This document shows, in pieces, positions 9,368-17,742 of a stretch of 64,000 nt of DNA. The position numbers and the translations under genes were made by a program. Below the pieces are notes generated by a model. It was not told the DNA's origin. It saw nothing but the letters and a program-made list of their open reading frames with translations, and made no database searches. The number at the start of each line of letters is the position of its first letter. Within the stretch, counting starts at the first letter, position 1. Origin of the DNA: Parvibaculum sp. (GTDB lineage: Bacteria; Pseudomonadota; Alphaproteobacteria; Parvibaculales; Parvibaculaceae); NCBI GenBank assembly GCA_017642695.1, contig JAEPQD010000002.1, positions 1,063,425-1,127,424 of the forward strand, given 5' to 3'.

Positions 9368-9787
9368 CTACCAGTGTCCCGTGTTCGGCATGGAAGCCCA
9401 GGGCTCGCGGGGTTCGAGGGGCTTGCCGGCCTGAAGCAGCTCGATGGAGATATTGTCGGGCGAGCGGACGAAGGCCATGCGGCCGTCCCGGGGTGGGCGG
9501 TTTATCGTGACCCCCGACTTCATCAGCCTGTCGCAGGTCTCGTAAATGTCGTCGACCTGGTAGGCGAGGTGGCCGAAATTGCGACCCTCGCCAAGCTCCT
9601 CCGGGTCCCAGTTCCAGGTGAGTTCGACCTGCGCGTCCTTCTGGCCGGGGGCGGCGAGGAAAACGAGGCTGAAGCGGCCTTCCTCGATGTCGAAGCGGCC
9701 GAGATTTTCGAGGCCGAGTTTCGTGCAGTAGAAGTCGAGCGCCTTGTCCAGGTCGCTGACGCGCACCATGGTGTGGAGATATTTCAT
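9368..9787 (-). CDS. gloA: Lactoylglutathione lyase-like VOC family protein (glyoxalase I)
   Basis: Vicinal-oxygen-chelate protein of 139 residues, the normal size of bacterial glyoxalase I, which isomerises the methylglyoxal-glutathione hemithioacetal to S-lactoylglutathione. The N-terminal metal His ([18 protein letters not shown]), the Glu in AQVELTWNW, the His in [12 protein letters not shown] and the Glu in ISIELLQAG fit the two-module metal site. Glyoxalase I is the most likely identity; a related VOC enzyme is possible. Confidence 0.85.
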
Positions 9788-9863: not shown

Positions 9864-10604
9864 ATGTCGAGAGAACTGAAGCGGGCCATCGAAGACGCCC
9901 ACCGCGTGGTGATCTTCACTGGCGCCGGGATCAGCACGGAATCGGGCATTCCCGATTTCCGGAGCCCGGGAGGTCTCTGGACCAAGATGGCGCCTATCGA
10001 CTTCCAGGACTATCTGCGCGACGCGGATATAAGGGCGGAAGCCTGGCGGCGGAAGTTCGAGATCGACAAGACCATCGTCAAGGCCGAGCCGAACAAGGGA
10101 CACATGGCGATCGCGAAGCTGGTGGACGAGGGCAAGGCGAGCCATGTCATCACGCAGAACATCGATAATCTGCACCAGCTGTCGGGCGTGCCGGCGGAGA
10201 AGGTGATCGAGCTGCACGGCAACGGGACCTATGCGAAGTGTCTCGACTGCGCGACGCGCTACGAGCTCGACTGGGTGCGCGCACAATACGAGGCGTCACT
10301 CGCGGCACCGGATTGTCCGTCCTGTGGCGGCATCGTGAAGTCGGCGACGATTTCCTTCGGGCAGGCGATGCCGGAAGAGGAGATGAACCGCGCACACGAG
10401 GCGACGCTCGGCTGCGATCTCTTCATTTCCATCGGTTCGTCGCTGCAGGTCTATCCGGCCGCGGGCTTCCCGATCCTTGCCAAGCGGAACGGGGCGATCC
10501 TCGCGATCCTCAACCGCGAGCCGACCGAACTCGACCAGATCGCCGACCTTGTGATCCATGACGAGATCGGGCCGACACTCGCGCCCATCGCGATGCTGAA
10601 TTAA
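9864..10604 (+). CDS. cobB: NAD-dependent protein deacylase, Sir2 family
   Basis: Sirtuin of 246 residues that removes acyl groups from lysines using NAD+. The NAD-binding motif GAGISTESGIPDFRS, the TQNIDNLH motif, the catalytic His in IELHGN and the zinc ribbon (CLDC ... CPSCGG) are all present, as is ISIGSSLQVYPAAGFP near the C-terminus. A GGAGAGGG ribosome-binding site precedes the ATG. Its stop shares the tetranucleotide TTAA (10601-10604) with the stop of the convergent halohydrin dehalogenase-like gene. Confidence 0.95.
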   Translation: MSRELKRAIEDAHRVVIFTGAGISTESGIPDFRSPGGLWTKMAPIDFQDYLRDADIRAEAWRRKFEIDKTIVKAEPNKGHMAIAKLVDEGKASHVITQNIDNLHQLSGVPAEKVIELHGNGTYAKCLDCATRYELDWVRAQYEASLAAPDCPSCGGIVKSATISFGQAMPEEEMNRAHEATLGCDLFISIGSSLQVYPAAGFPILAKRNGAILAILNREPTELDQIADLVIHDEIGPTLAPIAMLN

Positions 10605-11335
10605 CGGGCTGTCGCCCAGCCGCCCGCGACGGGGATCAACTGGCCGGTGATGAAGTCGGATGTGGGTCCCGCGAGGAAGGCGACGATGGCAGCGGCTTCT
10701 TCCGGCTTGCCAAGACGGCGCAGCGGAATGTTGCCGAGGATCTTGTCGCGCGACTTCGGGTCTTCGAGGAGCGAGGCCGGGAAGTAATCCGGGCTTTCGA
10801 TGAAATTGAAGCCGAGCGCGTTTACCTGGATGTTGTGCGGAGCGAGCTCCTTAGCGAGCGTGAGCGCGAGCGAATTCGCGGCACCGCGCGCAGCGGCGTA
10901 GATGCTGTAGTTCGGAATGCCGTTCAACGGCGCGGCGGAGGAGAGGAACAGGACCTTGCCTGCCTTCTGCTTCTTCATCTGCGGCACGGCGGCGCGCGTC
11001 ATGGCGAAGGACTTGAAGACGAGCGCCTCGAAGGTCTCGTGCATGTCCTTGTCCGTCGCCTCGTCCACCGGTCCGCGCACGGCCGGCCAGGCATCGTTGT
11101 TGATCAGGACATCGAGGCGGCCTTCCACTTCCAGAACGGCGGCGATGGCCTCTTCCGGCTTCTGCGCGGCGAGGGCCCTTGCGCCCGGTATCTTTTCCTC
11201 GAACGCGGCGCGGGCAGCGGCGTCCGTGAAGCTTGCATCGACGCCATAGACGGAAGCACCCTCCGCCAGCAGCGTGCGGGCAGACGGCCCGCCGACGAAA
11301 TGGGCGATGTCCGTGATCAGGATGCTGCGCGCCAT
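10601..11335 (-). CDS. Probable halohydrin dehalogenase (SDR-derived)
   Basis: 244-residue Rossmann-fold protein that looks like a short-chain dehydrogenase but has lost the NAD(P)H signature. In place of the glycine-rich loop it has T8-x4-F13-x-G15 (TDIAHFVG). Its catalytic triad is Ser133-x12-Tyr146-x3-Arg150, with Arg replacing the SDR Lys. This is the halohydrin dehalogenase (Hhe) pattern; HheC uses Ser132, Tyr145 and Arg149. These enzymes convert vicinal haloalcohols to epoxides with halide release and catalyse the reverse ring opening with small anions. The C-terminus (FITGQLIPVAGGW) is SDR-like. The sirtuin and alpha-glucosidase neighbours give no functional hint. Substrate range unknown. 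Confidence 0.85.
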   Translation of the reverse strand: MARSILITDIAHFVGGPSARTLLAEGASVYGVDASFTDAAARAAFEEKIPGARALAAQKPEEAIAAVLEVEGRLDVLINNDAWPAVRGPVDEATDKDMHETFEALVFKSFAMTRAAVPQMKKQKAGKVLFLSSAAPLNGIPNYSIYAAARGAANSLALTLAKELAPHNIQVNALGFNFIESPDYFPASLLEDPKSRDKILGNIPLRRLGKPEEAAAIVAFLAGPTSDFITGQLIPVAGGWATAR

Positions 11336-11428
11336 GTCTTCCCCCTTGAAATCAGGTTGTCTGTTCCCGTTTGGCCGTGAGACTGTGTTGCCTCGGCAAG
11401 AAGGTCAAGAACGAGCAGGGGACGAGAC

Positions 11429-13033
11429 GTGGGGAGCAAGGCTGAGTGGTGGAAGGGCGCGGTGGTCTATCAGATCTACCCGCGGAGCTTCCGCGACACG
11501 AATGGCGACGGTATCGGCGATCTGAAAGGCATCGAGGAGAAGCTCGATTACGTGGCGGGGCTCGGGGCCGACGCCATCTGGCTGTCGCCCTTCTATCCCT
11601 CGCCGAACAAGGACTTCGGTTACGACGTGTCGGACTATTGCGGCATCGCGCCCGAGATGGGGACGATGGCGGATTTCGACCGGCTGGTGGCGGAGACGCA
11701 CAAGCGGGGCTTGAAGCTCATCGTGGACCAGGTGCTGGCGCATACGTCGGAGCAGCATCAATGGTTTCAGGAGAGCCAGCTCTCCGCCGACAATCCGAAA
11801 TCGGACTGGTATGTCTGGGCCGATGCGAAGGAAGACGGGACCGTTCCCAACAACTGGCTCTCGGCGTTTGGCGGCCCGGCCTGGTCGTGGAACCCGATCC
11901 GGCGGCAGTACTATCACCACAAATTCCTGAAGAGCCAGCCGAAGCTCAACTTCCACAACGAGGAAGTTGTGGCCGCCTGCATGGACGTGCTGCGCTTCTG
12001 GCTCGACAGGGGCGTGGACGGGTTCCGGCTCGACGTCGCCAATGCCTATCTGCACGACGCGACGCTCACCGACAATCCGCCGCTGCCGATGGACAAGCGG
12101 ACTTTCATGGACTGGGCGCATGCGCCGCGGCTGCAGCAGCACATCCATGACGCGAACACGCCCGAGAACGAATGGGCGATGAAGCGGGTGCGCGCCGTGA
12201 TGGAGGAATATGACGAGCGGCTCGCCTTCGGCGAATTCTCGGAGCGGCAGGAAATGCTCGGGCTCTATGCGGGCGGGCTGGAACGGCTGCATACGGGCTA
12301 CACGTTTCACTTCCTTGAGGACTGGAGTTTCGAGCCGCCTGTCTTCCGCGCCTATTACGAGGAACTGCTGGCGCCGCTCGCCGACCTCTTTCCCTGCGTG
12401 ACCTTCTCGAATCACGACATCGTGCGGCCGGTGACGCGGTGGGGCGGGGGCCAGGGCGACGATGCGCTCGCGAAGCTCGCACTGACGATCCTCGTCGCGC
12501 TCAAGGGCACGGTGCTGATGTATCAGGGCGAGGAACTGGGGCTGCCGGAAACGGACCTCGACCGGCAATACATCAAGGACCCGGTGGGCGACCTCTACTT
12601 CCCGTGGGTGAAGGGACGCGACGGCTGCCGCACGCCGATGCCGTGGGAAGCGAAGGCGGAAGGCGCGGGCTTCACGAGCGGTACGCCCTGGCTGCCGATC
12701 CCGGACTATCACAAGGCCCGCGCGGCCGACGCGCAGGCGGGCGACGCGAACTCGGTACTGGCGCATGCGAAGAAGATCGTGGCGCTCCGCAAGGTGCATC
12801 CGGCGCTCAGGCTCGGCGATATCCGGTTTCTCGACACCGAAAGCAAGATGCTCGCCTTCACGCGTGAGGGGGAGGGCGAGACGCTTCTCTGCGTCTTCAA
12901 TCTCGGGACGGAGGCGGCGAGCTACGCGCTGCCGGAGGGTGCGGGCGAGGCGGTGTTCGATCTCGGCGAGGCGAAGCGGGCGGGCGCGACGTTGTCGTTG
13001 GGCGCCCGAGCCGGTGCAATCCTGAAAGCCTAG
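11429..13033 (+). CDS. GH13 family alpha-glucosidase
   Basis: 534-residue (beta/alpha)8 glycoside hydrolase of the alpha-amylase clan, hydrolysing terminal alpha-glucosidic bonds of short oligosaccharides. It shows the N-terminal YQIYPRSFRDTNGDGIGDL, the nucleophile region GFRLDVANAY (Asp near residue 201), the acid/base region LAFGEFSE (Glu near 268) and FSNHDIVRP (Asp near 329). A short beta C-domain ends the protein. No signal peptide, so cytosolic. The start is a GTG at 11429 preceded by GAGCAGGGG. The bond preferred (1,4 or 1,6) cannot be decided; trehalose synthase activity is less likely. Confidence 0.9.
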   Translation: MGSKAEWWKGAVVYQIYPRSFRDTNGDGIGDLKGIEEKLDYVAGLGADAIWLSPFYPSPNKDFGYDVSDYCGIAPEMGTMADFDRLVAETHKRGLKLIVDQVLAHTSEQHQWFQESQLSADNPKSDWYVWADAKEDGTVPNNWLSAFGGPAWSWNPIRRQYYHHKFLKSQPKLNFHNEEVVAACMDVLRFWLDRGVDGFRLDVANAYLHDATLTDNPPLPMDKRTFMDWAHAPRLQQHIHDANTPENEWAMKRVRAVMEEYDERLAFGEFSERQEMLGLYAGGLERLHTGYTFHFLEDWSFEPPVFRAYYEELLAPLADLFPCVTFSNHDIVRPVTRWGGGQGDDALAKLALTILVALKGTVLMYQGEELGLPETDLDRQYIKDPVGDLYFPWVKGRDGCRTPMPWEAKAEGAGFTSGTPWLPIPDYHKARAADAQAGDANSVLAHAKKIVALRKVHPALRLGDIRFLDTESKMLAFTREGEGETLLCVFNLGTEAASYALPEGAGEAVFDLGEAKRAGATLSLGARAGAILKA

Positions 13034-14643
13034 CGCTTCTCGCGCGCTTCGAACTCCGCCTGCGTGTCGATGTCGGTGAGCGTGGCGTCGTCGGGCATGG
13101 GGACTTCGCAGACGGCATCGGCATTTTCGCCGATGAGGTGTTTGGCGCCCGTGTCGCCCTTTACCTCCCTCATCGCGTCGAACCAGTCGCGGCCCCAGAG
13201 GACCGGGTTGCCGCGCTTGCCCGCGACGGTCGGCACGCAGATGGTGCGGCCTTCTTCCGGATCGAAAGCAGCGATGAGGCGGTCGAGATGGGCGGCCTCG
13301 ATGTCCGGCATATCGCCAAGACAGACAAGGACGCCGTCCACATCGTCGGGCAGGGCGGCGAGACCGGCGCGGAGCGAGGTCGAGAGGCCTTCCGCATAGT
13401 CCGGATTGTGGACGAAGGAAGCATCGAACTCCGAAAGCGCCGCACGCACCTCGCTTTCGGCATTGCCGGTGACGACGGTGACGGGACTAGCGCTGCTTGC
13501 ACGAACCGCTTCCGCGACATGAGCGACCATCGGCTTGCCGCCGAGCGGCAGGAGGAGCTTGTTCGGTCCGTTCATGCGGCTCGACCGGCCCGCCGCGAGA
13601 ATGAGCGCTGCGATGCGCGGGCTTGAGGCTGCGGCGCTTGCGCCTTCGCGCGGCTGCGGCCGGGTCGGGATTTCCTTCAGGAGACCGCCGAGGCCCATTG
13701 CCATGATGTCCTTCGGCGTGACCTCCAGCCCGGCGAGCAGGCGGGCCAGCACCCAGTCGAAGCCGTTGAGCTTCGGCGAGCGGGCGCAGCCGGGAAGACC
13801 GACGACCGGCGTTTCGCCGAGACGGGCGAGGAGCAGCAGATTGCCGGGATCGACCGGCATGCCGAAATGGAGGATGTCGCCGCCTGCCTGCACGATCCCG
13901 GCGGGGACGACGTCGCGGCGGTCGACCGTTGCCGAAGCGCCGAAGACGAGGATCGGCGAAAGGCCTTCCTTCGCGAGCGCACGCACGGCATCCGCCACGG
14001 CATGGGCGGTGTGGGGCACGCGGAGCTCGCGCGCGATGCGGCTTCCCATGGCGCCGAGCCGGTCGTCGAGGACGGCGCGGCTCTTGTCGAGCACGCTTTC
14101 CTTCGTGCTGGGCAATTGCGTGGCGACGAGGCCCACACGATGCGGCTCGAAGCGCTGGACCGCGATGGGCGCGGGGCCGAGGCGCGCGACCTCCAGCGCC
14201 TTGTCGAGGTCGGCGCGCGGTACGGCAAAGGGGATCACCTTCACGGTCGCAAGCATCTGGCGTTCGTCGACCGTTTCGAAGGTAGCGAGCGTCGCGACGG
14301 TGAGCGCCTCGCCGATCATGTTGATCGCCAATATGCGCTCGGCGTCGATCTCGAGGACACCCGCCTCCTCTGCGACGAGGTTGGCGCGGCCGGTGAAGGG
14401 CGCGGCGGCGCGGATCGACTTCCCGGCAAGGGCGCTCGCCAGTGCGGCGGCGGCCTCGTCCTCCGGCACGTCCGTTTCCTCGAGGCGCGCGGCGACGATG
14501 TGAGAGACGCCCGCCTCCTTGAGGGCGGCGATGTCGGCGCGGGAGAGCACGCGGCCCTTCTTGAAGGTCTCGCTGCCTGCCTTCTGCGAATGGGCGAGGA
14601 TCGCGCCTTCGGCCTCGTCCGGTGTCATGTCGCCGAAGATCAT
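13030..14643 (-). CDS. Molybdopterin-binding / MobA-like nucleotidyltransferase fusion
   Basis: 537-residue two-domain protein. Residues about 1-335 form a MoeA/MogA-like molybdopterin-binding region (MIFGDMTPDEAEGAILAHS at the start, PILVFGASATVDRRDVVP in the binding loop). Residues about 345-537 are a MobA/MocA-type nucleotidyltransferase (LILAAGRSSRMNGPNKLLL, CLGDMPDIE). This combination attaches CMP to molybdopterin, producing the cytosine dinucleotide cofactor used by xanthine-oxidase-family enzymes. It is the last gene of the cox cluster, overlapping the XdhC gene by 4 bp, which fits cofactor supply to CoxL. Its stop shares CTAG with the GH13 stop. Confidence 0.88.
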   Translation of the reverse strand: MIFGDMTPDEAEGAILAHSQKAGSETFKKGRVLSRADIAALKEAGVSHIVAARLEETDVPEDEAAAALASALAGKSIRAAAPFTGRANLVAEEAGVLEIDAERILAINMIGEALTVATLATFETVDERQMLATVKVIPFAVPRADLDKALEVARLGPAPIAVQRFEPHRVGLVATQLPSTKESVLDKSRAVLDDRLGAMGSRIARELRVPHTAHAVADAVRALAKEGLSPILVFGASATVDRRDVVPAGIVQAGGDILHFGMPVDPGNLLLLARLGETPVVGLPGCARSPKLNGFDWVLARLLAGLEVTPKDIMAMGLGGLLKEIPTRPQPREGASAAASSPRIAALILAAGRSSRMNGPNKLLLPLGGKPMVAHVAEAVRASSASPVTVVTGNAESEVRAALSEFDASFVHNPDYAEGLSTSLRAGLAALPDDVDGVLVCLGDMPDIEAAHLDRLIAAFDPEEGRTICVPTVAGKRGNPVLWGRDWFDAMREVKGDTGAKHLIGENADAVCEVPMPDDATLTDIDTQAEFEAREKR

Positions 14644-15317
14644 GTTCGAAGCGTCTCCGTGATTTCGGCCATGACCGAGATGGCGATTTCCGCCGGGCTC
14701 TTCGCGCCGATGGCGAGGCCGACCGGCCCGTGAATGCGGGCGATCTCATTATCGGTGAACCCGGCCTCGGTCAGCCGGGCGATGCGGGCGGCATGGGTTT
14801 TCTTCGAGCCAAGGGCGCCGATATAGAAGGCAGGGCTGCGCAGTGCGCCCTGAAGCGCCGGGTCGTCGAGCTTCGGGTCGTGGGTGAGGGTGACGACCGC
14901 GGTGCGGGCGTCGGGCGCGAAGGCGGCAAGCGCCTCGTCCGGCCAGTCGGTCACGAGGTGGACGTCCGGGAAACGCTCCTCCGAGGCGAAGGAGGTGCGC
15001 GGATCGACCACCGTCACGTCATAGCCCGAGAGCGCGCCGATGCGGGCGAGGGGCTGGGCGATATGGACGGCGCCGACAAGGAGGAGGCGGAGTGGCGGAT
15101 TGAACGGGTTCAGAAACCACTCGCCATCCGGCCCCTCAACGACGCGGCCCTTGTCGCTCGCCAGCACTTCAGATGCTGCTTCAATTAACCAGTTTTCTTC
15201 TGGTTTTTCAGATGGATAAACGAGTTTCTGGATTCCATCCGTTAATCTTGTCGCGAGGGTAACGGCGCGCTTTTCGGCGCGGTCTTCCACCAGTTTTTTG
15301 AGGATCGGGGCGTCCAT
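14640..15317 (-). CDS. XdhC family protein, Rossmann (C-terminal type) half
   Basis: 225 residues: a short N-terminal region, then the XdhC C-terminal Rossmann domain (LLLVGAVHIAQPLARIGALS), with VVTLTHDPKLDDPAL and YIGALGSKKTHAARIARL, both standard in this family. XdhC proteins bind the molybdenum cofactor, assist its sulfuration and insert it into hydroxylases. The ATG at 15317 follows the stop of the XdhC N-terminal-type gene by one base, so the function is split over two adjacent genes. It overlaps the downstream cofactor gene by ATGA. Confidence 0.9.
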   Translation of the reverse strand: MDAPILKKLVEDRAEKRAVTLATRLTDGIQKLVYPSEKPEENWLIEAASEVLASDKGRVVEGPDGEWFLNPFNPPLRLLLVGAVHIAQPLARIGALSGYDVTVVDPRTSFASEERFPDVHLVTDWPDEALAAFAPDARTAVVTLTHDPKLDDPALQGALRSPAFYIGALGSKKTHAARIARLTEAGFTDNEIARIHGPVGLAIGAKSPAEIAISVMAEITETLRT

Positions 15318-15318
15318 C

Positions 15319-15654
15319 TCAGCCCGTGACCGGTTCGACCATGACGCGGATGCGGCCGCCGCAGGCGAGCCCGACCTCCCAGGCCATGGCGTCGGAGACG
15401 CCATATTCGAGGACTTCCGGCTTGCCACTTTCAAGTGTGTCGAGCGCGCGGGTAACGACGTCGCCCTCGATGCAGCCGCCGGAGACAGAGCCGACAAAGG
15501 TAGCGTCGTCGCGGATCGCGAGCTGGCTGCCGACGGGGCGCGGAGCGGATCCCCAGGTCTCGATGACAGTGGCGAGGGCGACCTTACGGCCTTCGGCCTG
15601 CCAGCGGGCGGCTTCCTCCAGCACGTTGTCGTGGTTTGTGGCGGGCTCGCTCAT
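15319..15654 (-). CDS. XdhC/CoxI family protein, N-terminal type half
   Basis: 111 residues corresponding to the XdhC/CoxI N-terminal domain only: KVALATVIETWGSAPRPVGS, then GSVSGGCIEGDVV with the conserved cysteine, and GLACGGRIRVMVEP. Works with the Rossmann half encoded immediately downstream in handling sulfurated molybdenum cofactor. The start overlaps the coxE stop (ATGA at 15651-15654). The one-base gap to the next ORF is a clean stop/start rather than a frameshift, because each half has full domain boundaries. Confidence 0.9.
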   Translation of the reverse strand: MSEPATNHDNVLEEAARWQAEGRKVALATVIETWGSAPRPVGSQLAIRDDATFVGSVSGGCIEGDVVTRALDTLESGKPEVLEYGVSDAMAWEVGLACGGRIRVMVEPVTG

Positions 15655-16829
15655 GCAGCTCTCCTTTCCGGTGCCTTGCGGATATGGGCATCGGAGAGTG
15701 CTTCGACCAGAGAGGCGAGCGAGGCGAGATTATGGACGGGGCGGAACTCGTCAACATGGGGGAGGAGCGCCTTCACACCCAGTGCCTTCGGCTCGAAGCG
15801 GTCGTAGCGTAGCAGCGGGTTCAGCCAGATGAGACGGCGGGCGCTGCGGTGCAGCCGGGCGATTTCGGGTTCGACGCCCTCACCGGCGTCGCGATCGAGG
15901 CCATCCGTCACCAGCAGCACGGTCGCGCCTTGCCCCAGCACCCTGCGGCTCCAATCCGCATTGAAGCGGTGCAGCGTTTCGCCGATACGGGTGCCGCCGT
16001 CCCAGTCTTCGACGCGCGCGGCGACGCGGGCAAGCGCTTCGTCGACCTCGCGGTGTTTCAGTTCGCGGGTGACGTTGGTGAGGCGGGTGCCGAAAAGGAA
16101 GACATGGACGCGGTCCCGGTCGTTCGTCAGCGCGTGCAGGAAGTGAAGGAACATGCGCGCATAGGCCGACATGGAGCCAGAGATGTCGCAGAGGACGACG
16201 AGGGGCGGGCGGCGGCGGCGATGGTCGCGGCGCTTCAGTGGGATGACGCCGCCGGAGCGGAGTGTCGCCCGGAGCGTGGCGCGCATGTCGACCATATGGC
16301 CGCGGGCGGCGGGCCGCGTGCGCCGGGTGCGGACTTCATCGGAGGTCAGTCGGAGCCGCGAGATCGCAGCCTTGGCTTCGGCCAGCTCTGCGACCGACAT
16401 CTGCTCGAAGTCCTTTGTGCGGAGAAGCTCCTCGCCAGAGAAGGTTTCGCTGCGGTCGATCTCGATGTCGGGCTCTTCCTCGATGTGCGATGCGCCTTCG
16501 CCGAAAAGGGCTTCAGCGAGTCGGCGGCTTTTCTCTTCTTCGGTGGCGTCCGGTGGCGTTTCGATTTCCGGCAGCATCAGCGACATCATCTTGTCGAGAA
16601 GGCGCGGGTTCCGCCAGAAGACGTGGAAGGCCTGGTCGAAGAGTTCGTGTTCCTCATGGCGCTTCACGAGGGTGGCGCGGAGCGTCCAGTAGAAGTCCTC
16701 GCGTGTGCCGATACCCGCCGTTTCGACGGCTTCGACGGCGTCGAGTACCTGACGGGGACCGACGCGGAGACCGGCGCGGCGCAGGACGCGCGCGAAATGG
16801 AGGATGTTTTCCGCGAGGCGGCCGCTCAT
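15651..16829 (-). CDS. coxE: VWA-domain CoxE-like maturation protein
   Basis: 392-residue cytosolic protein with a C-terminal von Willebrand factor A domain; the MIDAS motif is LCDISGSMSAY at about residue 210. CoxE partners the CoxD AAA+ ATPase in post-translational maturation of the Mo/Cu or Mo active site of aerobic CO dehydrogenases and relatives. The ATG at 16829 is one base after the coxD stop; the ORF extends further upstream inside coxD, which is unlikely to be used. It is followed by the XdhC pair with a 4-bp overlap. Confidence 0.9.
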   Translation of the reverse strand: MSGRLAENILHFARVLRRAGLRVGPRQVLDAVEAVETAGIGTREDFYWTLRATLVKRHEEHELFDQAFHVFWRNPRLLDKMMSLMLPEIETPPDATEEEKSRRLAEALFGEGASHIEEEPDIEIDRSETFSGEELLRTKDFEQMSVAELAEAKAAISRLRLTSDEVRTRRTRPAARGHMVDMRATLRATLRSGGVIPLKRRDHRRRRPPLVVLCDISGSMSAYARMFLHFLHALTNDRDRVHVFLFGTRLTNVTRELKHREVDEALARVAARVEDWDGGTRIGETLHRFNADWSRRVLGQGATVLLVTDGLDRDAGEGVEPEIARLHRSARRLIWLNPLLRYDRFEPKALGVKALLPHVDEFRPVHNLASLASLVEALSDAHIRKAPERRAA

Positions 16830-16830
16830 T

Positions 16831-17742
16831 CTAGTCCGCCGCCTGTGCGGCCATCCGGATTTCCTCCAGAATGCGCGCGGCTTCGCTGCCCGCAACACGG
16901 GAAATGTCGTCCTGATATTTGAGGAGCGCGCCCAGCGTGTCGTTGACTGACTGCTTGTCGAGGGAGACGGTGTCGAGTGCGGTGAGCGCTTCCGCCCAGT
17001 CTATGGTCTCGGCGATACCGGGGTTTTTGTAGAGGTCCAGCTCGCGCAGCTTCTGAACGAAGGCGACGATATCACGGGAGAGCTTTTCCGGTGTGCCGGG
17101 GGCCTTCAGTTTCAGGATGGCGAGCTCGCGTTCCGCGTCCGGATAGTCGACCCAGTGATAAAGGCAACGGCGTTTCAGCGCGTCATGGATTTCACGTGTG
17201 CGGTTCGAGGTCACAATCACGACGGGCGGGTGCTCCGCCTTGATGGTGCCGATCTCGGGAACGCTGACCTGAAAGTCGGACAGTACTTCGAGGAGATAGG
17301 CCTCGAAGGGTTCGTCGGTCCGGTCGAGTTCGTCGATGAGGAGAACGGGCGGGCCGCCGGCGGAGGGCGCCAGCGCCTGCAGGATCGGGCGGCGGATGAG
17401 GAAGCGCTCGGAGAAGACGTCCTTGCCAAGTTCGGAGCGGTCCTCGACGCCTTCTGCCTCTGCGAGGCGGATCTCGATCATCTGCGCCTGGTAGTTCCAC
17501 TCATAGACAGCCGCCCCCGTATCGAGGCCTTCGTAGCATTGCAGGCGTATGAGACGGCGGCCGAGCGCATCGGCGAGCACCTTGGCGATCTCGGTCTTGC
17601 CGACGCCCGCCTCGCCCTCGAGGAGGAGGGGACGACCCATCTTGAGCGCAAGGAAGATCACTGTCGCGAGGGAGCGGTCGGCGACATAGTTGCCGCGCGC
17701 AAGCAGTTCGACGGTTTCGTCGATATTGGCAGGTAGCATCAT
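16831..17742 (-). CDS. coxD: MoxR-family AAA+ ATPase (CoxD-like)
   Basis: 303-residue AAA+ chaperone-like ATPase. Walker A is GEAGVGKTE at about residue 42, Walker B is LLIDELDRTDE at about residue 137 and sensor 1 is IVTSNRTREIHDAL. MoxR/CoxD ATPases act with the VWA protein encoded next to them to remodel and activate a metalloenzyme; in carboxydotrophs CoxD helps assemble the hydroxylase active site. It lies between coxM (37-bp gap) and coxE (1-bp gap). Confidence 0.92.
   Translation of the reverse strand: MMLPANIDETVELLARGNYVADRSLATVIFLALKMGRPLLLEGEAGVGKTEIAKVLADALGRRLIRLQCYEGLDTGAAVYEWNYQAQMIEIRLAEAEGVEDRSELGKDVFSERFLIRRPILQALAPSAGGPPVLLIDELDRTDEPFEAYLLEVLSDFQVSVPEIGTIKAEHPPVVIVTSNRTREIHDALKRRCLYHWVDYPDAERELAILKLKAPGTPEKLSRDIVAFVQKLRELDLYKNPGIAETIDWAEALTALDTVSLDKQSVNDTLGALLKYQDDISRVAGSEAARILEEIRMAAQAAD

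Follow-up and report, generated by a model that had tools for sequence, protein, structure and literature searches.

The natural function of halohydrin dehalogenases (HHDHs) has been given as the reaction itself (PMC6434027), and the native detoxification of natural haloalcohols is an assumption made in the literature. According to a 2016 review, the classical HHDHs were obtained by enrichment of strains on epihalohydrins or haloalcohols, and in HheC the Tyr accepts a proton, the Arg lowers the pKa of this Tyr and a nucleophile pocket is found at the former glycine motif (PMC4989007). The fingerprints published for these enzymes are T-x4-F/Y-x-G and S-x12-Y-x3-R (PMC4989007; PMC11976700). The review also reports HheA3 of Parvibaculum lavamentivorans DS-1 as characterised, credits this to Wan et al. 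2014 (in whose title the enzyme is named HHDH-PL), assigns HheA3 to the A subtype and lists it among the enzymes more thermostable than HheC (PMC4989007); the statement, in a preliminary description of the locus analysed here, that such an enzyme had been described from Parvibaculum is thereby confirmed.

The locus lies in a 64,000-nucleotide stretch of Parvibaculum sp. DNA, which in its entirety is referred to as the window. The gene located at 10601..11335 on the minus strand (the window gene) encodes, with a probability of about 0.93, a cofactor-free HHDH orthologous to HheA3 of DS-1, its chemistry and independence from NAD(P) being predicted properties. This reading is based on the motifs, the loss of four cofactor-site signatures, the tree, the fold search, orthology combined with synteny, and purifying selection.

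The HHDH gene and its immediate surroundings

Translation of the window gene yields an intact open reading frame of 244 aa with an ATG start, and direct reading of the sequence places a Shine-Dalgarno-like AAGGGGG (11341..11347, minus strand) with its end 5 nt before this ATG; its naming as HheA3 ortholog draws on the ORF, the PDB search, the tree, the fold search and the residue columns. The gene converges with that of a Sir2-family protein (9864..10604, plus strand; Pfam PF02146), the two sharing 4 bp at the HHDH stop; the Sir2 gene is a conserved neighbour by synteny, as is the glyoxalase-superfamily protein encoded at 9368..9787 on the minus strand (Pfam PF00903). On the other side, an alpha-amylase-family protein (Pfam PF00128; alpha-glucosidase-like is a name given by eye) is encoded divergently at 11429..13033 on the plus strand and is again a syntenic neighbour. 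Next to it is a flank conserved in Parvibaculaceae (13030..17742, minus strand), in which MobA-like and CoxE-like genes were recognised by Pfam, and XdhC-like and MoxR-like genes by eye, and which we take to be maturation genes of a molybdenum hydroxylase. No halogen- or epoxide-related Pfam name occurred among the ten HHDH neighbours scanned and the epoxide-hydrolase-family matches of the genome are distant, for which reason an operon with epoxide or halogen metabolism was rejected; a functional link between the HHDH and its neighbours is unproven.

Motifs and cofactor-site residues

Both published HHDH motifs are present in the window protein, TDIAHFVG being found at residues 8-15 and SAAPLNGIPNYSIYAAAR at residues 133-150, 125 residues apart. 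The first, T8-D-I-A-H-F13-V-G15 (11291..11314, minus strand), is the predicted nucleophile (halide) pocket loop that replaces the TGxxxGxG of SDRs, and the second, S133-x12-Y146-x3-R150 (10886..10939, minus strand), is the predicted catalytic triad; translation, motif scan and alignment columns locate T8-x4-F13-x-G15 and Ser133-x12-Tyr146-x3-Arg150 exactly where the preliminary description had put them. Its one-residue offset to HheC agrees with the alignment of residues 5-241 with residues 4-244 of HheC, and the NND segment to which it had drawn attention is found as N79-N80-D81-A82 in place of the SDR NNAG (11090..11101, minus strand; alignment columns). At the spacing seen in the window, the paired motif was retrieved from 37 of the 108 loci scanned, a set in which several genomes are counted twice. 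Within the own genome it was carried by one of 30 homologues scanned (the best 30 of 47), namely the window gene, and within genome G002, taken as P. lavamentivorans DS-1, likewise by one of 30 (the best 30 of 51). By these counts the paired motif in the window protein is not due to chance.

The alignment columns compare 53 HHDH-type rows (21 from the family Parvibaculaceae, three distant Parvibaculum copies, 25 from the class and four from the PDB) with 29 SDRs of the own genome, among which L094-L098 were omitted from the 57-row tree described below. The classical TGxxxGxG is absent from the window protein, D9 and F13 standing at positions occupied by G in 24/29 and 28/29 SDRs; position 13 is F in all 21 family rows, all three distant copies, 22 of the 25 class rows (W in the other three) and all four PDB rows. 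D is found at position 81 in 21/21 family, 25/25 class and 4/4 PDB HHDHs and in none of the three distant Parvibaculum copies, which have G, while 24 of the 29 SDRs have A. The Lys of the classical YxxxK is likewise missing, position 150 being R in 53/53 HHDH-type rows (SDRs: K in 28/29, R in 1/29), and position 177 (10805..10807, minus strand), where Gly of the SDR 'PG' motif is replaced, is N in 53/53 HHDH-type rows and G in 27/29 SDRs. These columns also set apart the segment Y184-F185-P186 (10778..10786, minus strand), in which Y184 is present in 52 of the 53 HHDH-type rows and the Y184-F185 stretch corresponds to a gap in 27 of the 29 SDRs. The window protein thus departs from SDRs in four cofactor-site signatures at once (F13 for G, NNDA for NNAG, R150 for K and N177 for PG), and since the glycine loop, NNAG, YxxxK and PG are all altered, chance loss of the Lys is an inadequate explanation.

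At position 176, which aligns with the pocket residue P175 of HheC, F is found in ten of the 21 family rows including the window protein, P in ten and A in one; the pocket of the window protein therefore differs from that of HheC. Motif 1 varies in HHDH-like proteins of other alphaproteobacteria that keep S-x12-Y-x3-R, reading T-x4-W-x-G in L161, L163 and L165 and having S in place of T in L162 and L170, so that these copies would be missed when searching by the published motif.

Relatives by sequence, fold and phylogeny

When the PDB was searched with phmmer, the top match of the window protein was 6a41 ('dehalogenase', 4e-64), followed by entries of the HheC and HheA types with E-values from 1e-41 to 2e-36 (HheC 9.9e-39, HheA 3.1e-38), and the first clearly classical SDR was DHRS4 (3o4r, 3.1e-27). 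Entries 8xxb and 7b73 (named only 'SDR') and 8h8y ('alpha/beta hydrolase') ranked among the HHDHs, 7b73 presumably being HheD2, and the HheB entries 5b12 and 4zd6 (8e-23 and 1.5e-22) ranked below several SDRs. An AlphaFold2 model generated from an 11-sequence alignment (mean pLDDT 76.6, pTM 0.78; C-terminal part poor, with residues 237-244 below pLDDT 50) has the SDR fold overall. In a Foldseek comparison of this model, ranks 1-15 went to 6a41 ('Dehalogenation enzyme') and to chains of the HheC or HheA type; the first NAD-bound SDR came at rank 16, with SDRs from there on, and the only HheG entry among the matches listed came at rank 42, amid SDRs. Sequence and fold searches are thus both headed by HHDHs (6a41, HheC and HheA). 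NCBIfam and Pfam gave SDR family names only, the 25 NCBIfam matches listed all falling under the curated cut-offs.

The best solved relative, both by sequence and by fold (44% identity), is 6a41, which shares the motifs but, unlike the window protein, belongs with sequences of a different alphaproteobacterial family (L168, L169, L172); L191, the sole locus of the 6a41 group read with 8-kb flanks, lacks the conserved neighbours of the window gene. HheC (1pwx) and HheA/HheA2 (4z9f, 1zmo), with sequence matches at about 1e-37 to 1e-39 and 33-36% identity in fold alignments, have in common with the window protein the Ser-Tyr-Arg, the nucleophile-loop motifs and the SDR-derived fold. With classical SDR oxidoreductases it shares the fold and the Ser and Tyr positions, but not TGxxxGxG, NNAG, YxxxK or PG.

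In a tree of 57 rows, a 100/100 branch separates 29 HHDH-type rows (21 family rows, three distant Parvibaculum copies and five PDB entries, 7b73 being a fragment) from 28 SDR rows (24 of the own genome and four from elsewhere), and within this set the Parvibaculaceae orthologs form one clade (97/95). The tree places the window protein within the HHDHs instead of among SDRs that have simply lost the Lys; the original proposal of a probable halohydrin dehalogenase among SDR proteins is therefore supported by the tree as well as by the sequence and fold matches. Considering that rows were picked with the motif in view, this tree is taken as evidence for separation and not as a full subtype tree: the B and G types were omitted despite their PDB entries, the E and F types were not included, and the bootstrap was incompletely settled (0.963). 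L012, L018, L019, L021, L024 and L027-L030, which are near-copies, partial sequences or distant SDRs, were left out of the trees.

The three distant Parvibaculum copies (L044:1501-2223, L045:1501-2214 and L046:1501-2214, in G019, G020 and G024) are 37-39% identical, carry both motifs and have C-T-G-G at the place of the HHDH N-N-D; the best PDB matches of L044 are 6a41, HheA and HheC. They are possibly an undescribed HHDH subtype. Their three genomes are without the copy at the conserved position described below, and replacement of the latter by the distant copy was considered and set aside, three of 27 genomes being too few to rely on.

Distribution and the conserved slot

Relatives were counted at E<=1e-30. 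Within the genus Parvibaculum they occur in 17 of 27 genomes including the own one, as 14 orthologs (that of G006 broken, that of G023 split across two contigs) and the three distant copies. The preliminary description had called these enzymes rare, a statement that needs qualifying, given that relatives are present in 27/40 genomes and 4/5 genera of the Parvibaculaceae and, for the class sampled evenly, in 49/385 genomes and 30/276 genera, five of these 49 genomes being Parvibaculaceae. Outside this family both motifs were found in 20 of 25 class loci (the best 25 fetched). In G135, G243 and G332, genomes of 1.6-2.3 Mb from one alphaproteobacterial genus, two HHDH-like matches are adjacent (e.g. 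G135:C6:94859-95569 and 95605-96321) and may represent a tandem pair.

Synteny was read at 23 loci, 20 of which (from 20 genomes and four genera) contain SIR2, HHDH and MobA-like genes in the order and directions of the window; this arrangement is referred to as the slot. The alpha-glucosidase gene is complete at 18 of the 20 slot loci, G006 retaining a remnant and G037 none, while glyoxalase is found at 19/20 and recJ at 18/20, the misses falling at contig or stretch ends; several slot loci contain insertions, and SIR2 lies ~6 kb off in G001 and G021. In G037 (L118) the HHDH gene directly follows the MobA-like/XdhC-like/CoxE-like/MoxR-like genes on the same strand. The three distant copies, read for synteny as L122-L124, share no slot gene.

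Gene order is unchanged in G002, the ortholog of which is 91% identical to the window protein (~9% of residues differ). This DS-1 slot protein is very probably the characterised HheA3, since it is the only carrier of the paired motif among the best 30 of 51 DS-1 homologues. The window enzyme is thus very probably not new as an enzyme, being a close ortholog of one already characterised.

For other families of the class, 20 loci were examined together with at most 8 kb of flanking sequence, some of these stretches being cut by contig ends. Three loci from one family (L173-L175) keep the order recJ-glyoxalase-SIR2-HHDH-alpha-glucosidase, two (L176 and L182) keep recJ, and the remaining 15 have no slot genes, a weak 35% glyoxalase match at L187 being left uncounted. 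No plasmid match at E<=1e-30 was obtained in 72,556 records, a set from which records near the window's genome were possibly left out. No paper on the conserved HHDH slot or on its class-wide spread was found in the open-licence literature, which makes for a weak claim.

Descent, loss and selection

A second tree contained ten of the 21 family rows, five SDRs and copies from other families. The slot-bearing copies of both families form one clade (98/94), which supports common descent of their slot gene; the remaining two lineages linked to recJ lie outside it, where the branching is unresolved. Within the slot clade, the other family's three sequences are joined to P. indicum (90/90, unstarred) instead of standing beside the Parvibaculaceae set as a whole. 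Owing to this nesting strictly vertical descent is not established, poor resolution and transfer of the slot both fitting the observation.

The Sir2 protein was used to search the 16 Parvibaculaceae genomes that lack a slot copy; 11 gave a match, and ten stretches were taken from these (not that of G027). Seven of the ten (G012, G007, G024, G020, G019, G025 and G003) contain SIR2 and alpha-glucosidase with no HHDH match between them, the gaps measured between match ends being ~256, 248, 23, 75, 53, 1317 and 591 bp, in that order. In G010 (L138:5469-5690) the HHDH gene is lost internally, residues 1-20 and 203-244 remaining; in G005 the contig ended, and in G028 no alpha-glucosidase was seen. 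The broken copy of G006 (L121:8004-8354) consists of the C-terminal half only, beside the alpha-glucosidase remnant. Some of these losses could be artefacts of draft assembly.

Comparison of the window gene with seven orthologs gave dN/dS values (NG86) of 0.048-0.110; the gene is under purifying selection. The HHDH gene appears to be a long-established part of the Parvibaculaceae chromosome rather than an accessory gene, and an old native role is favoured by the conserved slot, the losses in several Parvibaculum genomes and the purifying selection taken together.

Proposed function and alternative explanations

In the triad of HHDHs the Ser holds the substrate. By analogy with HheC, the window enzyme very probably makes and opens epoxides through the removal and addition of halide: Tyr146, acidified by Arg150, would deprotonate the hydroxyl of a vicinal haloalcohol held by Ser133, the resulting alkoxide would displace the halide on the adjacent carbon to form the epoxide, and the halide would leave into a pocket lined by two loops, those of T8-F13-G15 and N177, at the place occupied by the nicotinamide in SDRs. 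The residue states at these positions and the fold matches are compatible with such a predicted halide pocket. In the reverse direction, epoxides would be opened with halide, azide, cyanide or nitrite. The native role would most likely be the disposal of haloalcohols and epoxides met naturally, the epoxide product then being handled by an epoxide hydrolase encoded elsewhere in the genome. The own genome contains two EHN-type and two LEH-type epoxide-hydrolase-family matches above cut-off, located on C1, or on C2 far from the HHDH gene, none being near it; these four matches make a haloalcohol-to-diol route possible in principle. The two EHN-type matches at G000:C1:33171-34705 adjoin each other on one strand.

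A different native job for the same HHDH fold, namely the opening of epoxides (or another elimination or addition) with an everyday anion, halohydrin activity being a side reaction, is the less likely proposal and has perhaps one chance in a few of being correct. It is in keeping with a chromosomal slot conserved across four genera of the family and three genomes of another, with the loss of the gene from this slot, with the plasmid search that returned nothing at E<=1e-30, and with the ten scanned neighbours, none of which is a catabolic gene for halogenated compounds; the same facts, however, fit the native detoxification of natural haloalcohols too. Chance loss of the Lys and glycine loop from an NAD(P)-dependent SDR oxidoreductase of the ordinary kind, or a dead SDR, would account for the SDR fold and for the SDR names given by generic family libraries, but is very improbable: the 100/100 branch and the joint HHDH states of the four cofactor-site signatures rule out an ordinary SDR minus its Lys, and dN/dS values of 0.05-0.11 against seven orthologs argue against a dead gene. 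Recent acquisition as a xenobiotic-degradation gene, for which the origin of classical HHDHs from epihalohydrin-enriched strains (PMC4989007) and the nested copies of the other family (on unstarred forks, so that some transfer is possible) can be invoked, is scarcely credible, recent or plasmid origin being disfavoured by a slot common to several genera and another family, by the single clade of the copies of two families (98/94) and by the lack of a match at E<=1e-30 in the 72,556 plasmid records.

With regard to biocatalysis, one more HHDH that is 91% identical to a very probably characterised enzyme is a small gain. Its distribution outweighs the enzyme itself, since a resident chromosomal slot gene is at issue here, as opposed to the classical HHDHs of enrichment strains. 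We place at about even odds the broader proposal that an ancestral slot HHDH, older than man-made halohydrins, exists in the Parvibaculaceae and in one or more further alphaproteobacterial families and has a native function, which would be either the disposal of natural haloalcohols or the opening of epoxides with an everyday anion, with dehalogenation as a by-product. Being resident in the slot, the gene makes this question of native function testable by a single defined deletion in a cultured strain.
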